Source: Deltaproteobacteria bacterium
GTDB taxonomy: Bacteria; Desulfobacterota; Syntrophia; Syntrophales; Smithellaceae
NCBI GenBank assembly: GCA_025361065.1
Contig: JANYAY010000061.1
Span: 1 to 51,047, forward strand
Reading direction: 5' to 3'
DNA length: 51,047 bases
This document shows positions 31,990 through 34,042 of this stretch, one piece after another. A program made the position numbers and the translations under genes. The notes beneath the pieces were generated by a model. That model was not told where the DNA came from. It did not search any database and saw nothing but the letters and a program-made list of their open reading frames with translations. Within the stretch, counting starts at the first letter, position 1; the number at the start of each line of letters is the position of its first letter.

Positions 31990-32066
31990 CGGGGCGTAGC
32001 GCAGCTTGGTAGCGCGCCTGCTTTGGGAGCAGGATGTCGCAGGTTCAAATCCTGCCGCCCCGACCA
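31990..32066 (+). tRNA. tRNA-Pro (anticodon TGG)
   Basis: A 77-nt cloverleaf. The acceptor stem pairs CGGGGCG with CGCCCCG, the anticodon stem CCTGC/GCAGG encloses TTTGGGA with anticodon TGG, and the T arm is GCAGG-TTCAAAT-CCTGC. The CCA end is encoded (32064-32066). Its T-arm and 3' end are the apparent integration site of a small island; an 18-bp copy lies at 33913-33930. Confidence 0.96.
32039..32056 (+). repeat. attL-like site in tRNA-Pro
   Basis: The 18-bp sequence GCAGGTTCAAATCCTGCC, the T-arm of tRNA-Pro, is repeated exactly at 33913-33930, bounding about 1.9 kb that contains an integrase remnant. Tyrosine integrases commonly recombine at tRNA 3' ends, so this is the likely left boundary. 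Confidence 0.6.
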
Positions 32067-32557: not shown

Positions 32558-32573
32558 TGTGACGTATGTCACA
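32558..32573 (+). promoter_or_regulatory. CRP/FNR-family operator (perfect TGTGA-N6-TCACA)
   Basis: TGTGACGTATGTCACA matches the CRP-type consensus exactly. In deltaproteobacteria, related regulators such as HcpR recognise the same or a very similar palindrome. Its centre lies at 32565.5, 41.5 bp upstream of the start site predicted from the TATAAT at 32595, the position of a class II activator. Confidence 0.75.
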
Positions 32574-32594
32574 GAAGATTCTTCTTTTACCTTG

Positions 32595-32600
32595 TATAAT
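32595..32600 (+). promoter_or_regulatory. -10 box of the activator-dependent promoter
   Basis: A perfect TATAAT lacks a recognisable -35 box at 17 bp (CAGAAG stands there), which is typical when an activator replaces the -35 contact. Predicted transcription start is near 32607, some 30 nt before a 21-codon leader ORF. Confidence 0.68.
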
Positions 32601-32636
32601 TCCAGCCGTAAAAGACCTCAATGTAAGGAGGATTAC

Positions 32637-32702
32637 ATGTTTATGAAGAACAAACCAATACTTTACACAATTTCCGAAAGGAGAAAATACTATGCCAATT
32701 AA
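32637..32702 (+). CDS. 21-residue leader peptide ORF
   Basis: A short frame ATG...TAA behind a very strong ribosome site (TAAGGAGG, 5-6 nt spacing). The peptide begins MFMKNKPILYT and ends with the basic RRKYYAN. Its stop codon lies inside the start region of the next gene, whose own ribosome site AAAGGAG is within it, so translation of the leader may control or couple to the downstream gene. Too short for similarity evidence; called on ribosome site and arrangement. Confidence 0.5.
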   Translation: MFMKNKPILYTISERRKYYAN

Positions 32703-32997
32703 TCAAGTGTCACAGGTAGATGCCGCTTATATGATTATCCCGGCAACTGCAACAAATGCAAGCCAAACCGCTTCCCCAGACGCACCGGCAGAGCAAACAG
32801 CTCCCCAAGCGAAAACAAAGTCGACCACCGACACTGTATCAATAAGCAGCGCTGCCAAGGCGGCTTCAGAAGAAGCTAAAGTGACGGCTGCTCAAACTGC
32901 CAAAGAAGCGGAGAGATTGCTGGCAAAACAGGATGCTGAGAAAACAGTAACTGAAGCTCCCGCCAACAATATTAGTCTTACTGATCTATTTATATAG
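32692..32997 (+). CDS. Low-complexity 101-residue protein of the island
   Basis: A 101-residue protein that I do not recognise. It is rich in alanine, threonine and glutamine and has no membrane segment. It contains TTDTVSISSAAKAASEEA (about 44-61), a type of motif seen in short secreted or flagella-associated proteins, and then a charged helical stretch (AKEAERLLAKQDAEK). The ATG follows AAAGGAG and overlaps the leader ORF. It is expressed from a promoter with a perfect CRP-type site, so it may respond to an anaerobic or carbon signal. Confidence 0.65.
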   Translation: MPINQVSQVDAAYMIIPATATNASQTASPDAPAEQTAPQAKTKSTTDTVSISSAAKAASEEAKVTAAQTAKEAERLLAKQDAEKTVTEAPANNISLTDLFI

Positions 32998-33220
32998 CAG
33001 CAGTTCTTTCCCGAATTGCTTGTAAAGTATTTTCCTTTGCCTAAATGGAAAAGCTTCTGTTGTATAACCATATTCTCTCTAATAAAGTGAGTTCAAATAT
33101 CAAAAGCAGTGTCGATTCGGCTCTGCCAGGCGTCGCACTGGTAGATTACTATGTTGTGAAGGGCGCAAACGTATTTGCTTTATACCTCGTTGTAATATAT
33201 ATGATTTAGAAAAAAACAAT

Positions 33221-33706
33221 ATGCTGATAACTAAAAGAAAGAATTATTTAACTGAATTTTCACTTAAACAGAAACTTGTACCGACAATTTTGTTTGTACT
33301 GCTTTTTCTAGTAGGTCTTGTAATACTATTACAATATGAATTATTATACATAGGAGCTTACCTGATATTGTGGCTTGTATCATATCCAGTTATTTATGCA
33401 GGCACTTGTCGTTACTGTGCAAATTATGGCAAACCATGTCCTATTATACTTGAAGGAGGGATGGTTCACTGGGTTTTTGATCGGGTCAATAAACCATATG
33501 GAATGATGCAGCTTATCTGGGCATCTGTTGCTTATTTACTTCGTATTGTTGTCCCATTCATTATTATTATTCAAAACCAGTTATGGACATGGGGAATACT
33601 ATATGGGGCTACCTTTATAGGATTCTGGTTTTCCCATTTAAGGATTACCGGGTGTCCTAATTGTGTTAACTATCAATGCCCGCTTAATCCTGGCACAAAA
33701 TATTAG
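33221..33706 (+). CDS. Cysteine-rich four-helix membrane protein
   Basis: A 161-residue membrane protein with about four hydrophobic segments (about 20-38, 40-60, 97-118 and 122-139). Two similar cysteine clusters lie at the same kind of position after helices 2 and 4: CRYCANYGKPCP (63-74; C63, C66, C73) and CPNCVNYQCP (145-154; C145, C148, C153). The doubled CxxCxNY...CP pattern suggests a bound metal or a redox disulfide site. I recognise no family name. The ribosome site is poor, and base composition is more AT-rich than in the flanking housekeeping genes, consistent with acquired DNA. Confidence 0.65.
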   Translation: MLITKRKNYLTEFSLKQKLVPTILFVLLFLVGLVILLQYELLYIGAYLILWLVSYPVIYAGTCRYCANYGKPCPIILEGGMVHWVFDRVNKPYGMMQLIWASVAYLLRIVVPFIIIIQNQLWTWGILYGATFIGFWFSHLRITGCPNCVNYQCPLNPGTKY

Positions 33707-34042
33707 ATGATTGTTCCCGTCCAGCCTATTGTTGCGCTTCGGCTGATTTCTATGTTAAACCTTTCAAGTCGTAATTCACAACATCAGAAATATTCAAAAA
33801 CATTTGTTAATAGGTGCCGACAAAAATAAAAGAAGGAATATAAGTAGCCGTTATCAAATCATTATCATCATCAATTGATACATAATAATAACAGATATTT
33901 ACAATCGGCGGGGCAGGTTCAAATCCTGCCCCGCCCTAACCAATGATATCAAGGGATTTAATATTTGCTTGATTAAACGTTTTGACGGACATATTGTATT
34001 CGACGGGCGACAGTCCTCAGAAAAAACGGAAGGGAGATAAGG
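33707..34042. other. Right end of the island and upstream region of the dehydrogenase
   Basis: A 336-bp gap. The left part is AT-rich with no gene. It contains the tRNA T-arm copy (33913-33930) and then a possible promoter for the dehydrogenase: TTGATT (33969-33974), 17 bp, TATTGT (33992-33997). The ribosome site AAGGGAGATAAGG precedes the ATG at 34043. Confidence 0.5.
33913..33930 (+). repeat. attR-like copy of the tRNA-Pro T-arm
   Basis: Exact 18-bp copy of 32039-32056 within an 11-bp stem hairpin (GGCGGGGCAGG / CCTGCCCCGCC). It cannot fold a full tRNA because no D or anticodon arm precedes it and the acceptor spacing is wrong. Read as the right border of the integrated island. Confidence 0.55.

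Follow-up and report, generated by a model that had tools for sequence, protein, structure and literature searches.

A candidate class II CRP-family promoter in a small tRNA-Pro island and a palindrome at the stop codon of its likely regulator

Organization of the locus

The window analysed here is a stretch of 51,047 nucleotides from a Deltaproteobacteria bacterium (genome G000), and the unit under study lies within an island of 1.87 kb adjoining a tRNA-Pro gene (Table 1). The insert is flanked by the duplicated 3' end of the tRNA, with the two 23-nt repeats lying 1874 nt apart. Of a tyrosine integrase of the phage type, only the C-terminal part is left beside the tRNA, with a Pfam Phage_integrase match below the cut-off (E 2e-4) and a PHROG integrase match at E 0.003. 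No regulator gene was found within the 1.87 kb. Comparison with three congeners showed that rdgB and tRNA-Pro were kept in all three and that the DNA past tRNA-Pro differed in each, and no clean empty junction after tRNA-Pro was seen among them. Two further features were observed in the right part of the island. Positions 33045-33209 hold a fragment that resembles a PEP-CTERM protein in its C-terminal part (GVALVDYYVVKGANVFALY); 73 bp of it (33127-33199) are 86% identical in DNA to a gene in contig 11 of the congener G001. Positions 33221-33706 encode a Cys-rich membrane protein of 161 aa (CRYCANYGKPCP, with GCPNCVNYQCP) without any match in Pfam, NCBIfam or PHROGs.

Table 1. Coordinates of the features of the island and of the candidate regulated unit in the window.
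Feature	Position	Strand	Basis or remark
Left island repeat, 3' end of tRNA-Pro(TGG) 31990-32066	32039..32061	+	repeat comparison
Phage-type tyrosine integrase remnant, 91 aa	32078..32353	-	C-terminal part only
Operator TGTGACGTATGTCACA	32558..32573	.	candidate site for a CRP-family dimer, centre 32565.5
-10 hexamer TATAAT	32595..32600	+	sequence; 21 bp after operator; no -35 box
Predicted transcription start	32607..32607	+	inferred, 7 nt after -10
Shine-Dalgarno AGGAGG of leader ORF	32626..32631	+	sequence
Leader ORF, 21 aa, MFMKNKPILYTISERRKYYAN	32637..32702	+	ORF translation; ATG at 32637
Shine-Dalgarno AAAGGAG of 101-aa gene	32677..32683	+	sequence; within leader ORF
101-aa Ala/Thr-rich orphan protein	32692..32997	+	homologues in G003 (two), G126, G088 and G270
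Right island repeat, copy of tRNA 3' end	33913..33935	+	repeat comparison; 21/23

The operator and its promoter

The operator matched TGTGAC-N4-GTCACA at 12 of 12 specified bases, and its centre lies 41.5 bp upstream of the start predicted from TATAAT. A scan with the two-hexamer consensus returned no promoter with a TTGACA-like box 16-18 bp before this TATAAT. The original prediction had described an exact consensus palindrome in class II position ahead of a -10 without a -35 box, followed by a 21-codon ORF with a strong ribosome site that overlaps the next gene, all inside an island. These descriptions hold, with the small correction that the inner four bases of the operator, GTAT, are incompletely symmetric.

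The palindrome by itself is only mildly improbable and is weak evidence. The exact string TGTGAC-N4-GTCACA occurred once in the 3.95-Mb genome against about 0.21 copies expected, so that its uniqueness is a weak argument. The shorter core TGTGA-N6-TCACA occurred three times, and its reversed control not at all; the three copies were the window operator, a site inside a coding gene on contig C81, and a site on contig C128 spanning the stop codon of a CRP-family gene. Sites with one mismatch to the palindrome numbered 19 (9 in the control), most of them within genes, while those with two mismatches numbered 72, below the 99 of the reversed control, and a large regulon built on such loose matches was therefore ruled out. 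Within the window, the 12 matches with up to three mismatches were uninformative, since 10.1 were expected. What makes the palindrome convincing is the perfect TATAAT at the spacing for -41.5, together with the comparative data on the flanks of the CRP-family gene described below.

The leader ORF and the 101-aa protein

The string AGGAGG-N4-9-ATG was found three times in the 51-kb window, the leader start among them, and with so few copies chance is an improbable explanation of that start. The leader ORF and the 101-aa gene share 11 nt. The leader was not found upstream of the two homologues of the 101-aa protein in the same genus (G003); judged from sequence, the leader start looks real, yet it is not conserved. 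No RNA structure in the leader was more stable than that of shuffled sequences (z = +0.5), no Rfam family matched beyond tRNA, and neither a codon run nor a stall-like sequence was present in the ORF. A role of the leader as an RNA regulator was ruled out on the first two of these results. An inverted repeat, ATGTAA-GGAGGA-TTACAT, was observed at 32620-32637 and would enclose the leader Shine-Dalgarno in a loop of six bases; the fold of minimum energy does not contain it.

The 101-aa protein had no match in Pfam, NCBIfam or PHROGs. Its closest relatives are the two proteins of G003, uncultured delta proteobacterium AlinenLipids_bin-4002, with 48 and 44% identity; weaker ones were found in G126 and G088, and one more in G270, elsewhere in the phylum. 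The family is marked by MxINxVxQ at the start and TDTVxIS in the middle of the protein, and most relatives have QT-x-x-EA and RLLAKE in the C-terminal helix region. Structure prediction returned a single helix at 52-87 with low confidence (pLDDT 53). The protein probably has a disordered N-terminal half and a C-terminal helix, and the family is probably disordered. The neighbourhoods of the relatives vary: the gene follows a two-component pair or an ABC transporter, precedes a TatA-like gene, or lies beside a transposase. By these comparisons the protein is a member of a rare, scattered orphan family without a fixed partner. No relatives were found on phages, plasmids or viral contigs. Apparent extra paralogues in the genome itself and in G001 proved false, being frames antisense to or overlapping a thiolase-like gene.

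CRP/FNR proteins of the genome

A Pfam HTH search found three CRP/FNR proteins in the genome. An HcpR-like protein is encoded next to hcp in divergent orientation, and its recognition helix TIPETLSR (P-E-T-L-S-R) has Pro at CRP position 180; in the hcpR-hcp intergenic region (L041, contig C32), TTGACTTAAGTCAA matches the HcpR motif of the Pro/Ser180 type exactly. The second protein, encoded near a thioredoxin gene, has the helix ATPEALSR (P-E-A-L-S-R). A palindrome CATTGACTTAAATCAATG just before its gene (L042, contig C3) is a possible autoregulatory site. The third protein, named CRP3 here (240 aa, C128:28645-29364), has the helix SLTRETATR, which corresponds to Arg180/Glu181/Arg185, and it is the only one of the three with R-E-T-A-T-R. 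Comparative analysis of HcpR proteins has associated Arg180 with G3 of TGTGA and with TGTGA-N6-TCACA, and Ser or Pro180 with TTGAC-N4-GTCAA (Rodionov 2005, PMC1274295; PMC545781), and the Desulfovibrio HcpR motif is wTGTGAnnnnnnTCACAw (PMC1274295). By this residue-180 rule (PMC1274295), the window site would not be read by either of the two Pro180-type regulators. A search for copies of TGTGA-N6-TCACA near hcp, which had been proposed as a check of an HcpR regulon, found none, nor were any found near the second Pro-type regulator.

In Clr and CRP, an Arg-Ser pair binds the phosphate of cAMP. The sensor domain of CRP3 has A-P at the position of this pair in the cAMP-binding Clr, and thus lacks Arg82-Ser83, the residues of the canonical phosphate contacts. 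CRP3-type sensor domains carry DG-x-T-A/S-P-A-T at this position, and the readable orthologues resemble CRP3 of G000.

CRP3 across the order

Among the 155 genomes of the order, 24 contained CRP3-like genes, at 26 loci. The motif TGTGAY-N4-RTCACA, with 11-12 of 12 matches, overlapped or abutted the CRP3 stop codon at 15 of the 26 loci, from six families, while the reversed control pattern was found at none of the 26. The stop-codon TGA usually lies inside the first half-site (TTG TGA), and conservation of the protein does not explain the motif, since the coding sequence ends before the second half-site. At the inner positions that are C/G in the window operator, the flank motif is often T/A (TGTGAT-N4-ATCACA), and both kinds of inner bases occur among the flanks of CRP3 orthologues. 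The CRP3 3' ends with the palindrome at the stop codon were those of L045, L089, L046, L090, L098-L105, L048, L050 and L106.

The distribution of CRP3 is patchy. Two of the three congeners (G002 and G003) lack it, and the nearest relative, with 86% identity, belongs to another family (G061), against only 79% for the congener G001; this pattern suggests horizontal movement of CRP3. Neither CRP3 nor, upstream of the two 101-aa relatives, the palindrome was found in G003. A CRP3-like protein and a 101-aa relative occurred together only in G000 and G088 among the searched genomes, and the G088 relative is a fragment at a contig end whose upstream region is missing.

In G000, G001, G061, G060, G034 and G021, the gene next after CRP3 encodes a membrane protein of 90 aa without a Pfam family, and the same protein was recognized by resemblance in G037 and G056. 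It is a conserved, recurrent neighbour of CRP3 (L045 and relatives), and in some cases an ExeA-like AAA_22 ATPase comes after it. An AAA_22 ATPase after CRP3 was identified by Pfam in G034, with similar proteins in G015, G030 and G021; other products encoded after CRP3 are, in G122, a protein resembling Flp/Fap pilins (a match under the curated cut-off), in G129 a protein carrying a prepilin methylation motif, and in G071 an SCPU-domain protein. Judged by these neighbours alone, the putative CRP3 targets lean to envelope or appendage functions. Small literature searches returned nothing relevant on CRP sites at stop codons and no result on Crp/Fnr in Syntrophus and Smithella.

Promoter architecture in the CRP3 flanks

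In the 15 CRP3 flanks, with the window excluded, the match to TATAAT peaked 21 bases after the palindrome, the first of 60 offsets, and this is the very spacing between operator and -10 in the window. With 11 deduplicated flanks, none of 5000 shuffles attained the observed mean match at offset 21. Individual -10 elements in the flanks were often weak, and that of G000 itself, GAGTAT, was poor. The spacer in the CRP3 flank of G071 was identical to the window spacer at 17 of 21 bases, a level of match (at least 17/21) reached at 1 of 235,728 background positions. In G071, a short ORF behind AGGAGG also follows the putative CRP3-flank promoter, as does the leader in the window (n=1).

Discussion

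The window site probably serves as operator in a class II CRP-family promoter, and CRP3 is its most likely regulator. In the proposed mechanism, a CRP3 dimer would occupy the operator and substitute for the -35 element, bringing RNA polymerase to TATAAT so that transcription would begin near the predicted start. Strong ribosome loading at AGGAGG would then lead to translation of the 21-codon leader, and its termination 11 nt into the 101-aa gene would link the translation of the two ORFs. The 101-aa product is probably a mostly disordered accessory protein of the tRNA-Pro island, which came under CRP3 control in this strain. Since the only other intergenic exact site in G000 is that of CRP3 itself, the CRP3 regulon in this genome would be tiny, if there is one.

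An active class II promoter read by a different regulator, one imported with the parent element of the island or missing from the assembly, is unlikely, though the most probable of the alternatives. The promoter is located in an integrated island, its best spacer match comes from another genus (G071), and a further CRP-type regulator could be missing because the completeness of the genome is estimated at 97%. The island in its present extent holds no regulator gene, however, and the T/A inner bases of the CRP3 flank in G000, as opposed to C/G in the window, lose force because orthologues carry both.

The spacer match with G071, found at a CRP3 flank of another genus, also speaks against the still less probable reading that the palindrome arose by chance in a degenerating island and that the gene is either untranscribed or served by another promoter. 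So do the intergenic position of the site, the perfect TATAAT at exactly the spacing for -41.5, and the strong ribosome site rightly placed behind them. Such a reading would accord with the decay of the island, seen in the integrase remnant and the PEP-CTERM gene fragment, with an exact copy being expected by chance in one of five genomes, and with the lack of enrichment of loose matches.

The leader had been taken as part of a candidate new small-protein system. That it encodes a regulatory peptide, acting by attenuation or sensing, is very improbable: the strong AGGAGG, the ATG and the 11-nt overlap would suit such a role, but the leader is missing upstream of both same-genus homologues, and it has no stable RNA structure, Rfam match, codon run or stall-like sequence. 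The membership of the 101-aa protein in a rare orphan family without a fixed partner also argues against a new system. Least credible of all is the HcpR regulon of nitrosative or energy stress named in the original prediction, since the fit to the Desulfovibrio motif and the hcpR-like gene beside hcp are outweighed by Pro180, as in readers of TTGAC-N4-GTCAA, by an hcp promoter with TTGACTTAAGTCAA, and by the absence of TGTGA-N6-TCACA near hcp and the second Pro-type regulator. On this sequence evidence, CRP3 takes the place of HcpR as the most likely regulator.

Of more interest than the window unit is a by-product of this analysis, the putative operator that the CRP3 subfamily conserves at the stop codon. 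As a tentative generalization, which we consider possible but doubtful as a whole, CRP/FNR regulators without the cAMP-binding Arg-Ser might form a subfamily whose operator spans the regulator's own stop codon in the whole order, and a class II promoter within the last part of the regulator's coding sequence might serve to activate the gene that follows. The regulator might respond to a new signal and target surface appendages and secretion, and the island gene might be a further target through an acquired copy of the promoter. CRP3 and its stop-codon palindrome form a candidate regulator-operator pair that can be tested in a group without cultured members. With a conserved site at the stop codon of the regulator, the DNA motif of a CRP subfamily can be read from genomes, which makes targets predictable. 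The published residue-180 specificity rule tells apart two regulons that are alike to the eye, and the window unit would be an example of an island gene placed under a host-wide regulator.

The unit can be compared with three known systems. Islands integrated at tRNA genes by tyrosine integrases likewise have a second copy of the tRNA 3' end (here of tRNA-Pro) at their far side and the integrase, in this case a remnant, beside the tRNA, but the present island has just 1.87 kb, a broken integrase and no further mobility gene. In class II CRP-dependent promoters, such as galP1 of E. coli, the operator lies at -41.5 over the -35 region, ahead of a good -10. The window promoter shares this layout, as counted from its predicted start, and the TGTGA-N6-TCACA core, whereas its likely regulator is without the canonical cAMP-binding Arg-Ser, and its activation is a prediction. 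The HcpR regulons of Deltaproteobacteria (Rodionov 2004, PMC545781; Rodionov 2005, PMC1274295) resemble it in the CRP/FNR family of the regulator and in a palindromic operator, which in the Desulfovibrio version is TGTGA-N6-TCACA, but HcpR of this genome has Pro180 and the hcp site TTGACTTAAGTCAA, whereas the window operator is of the Arg180 type.
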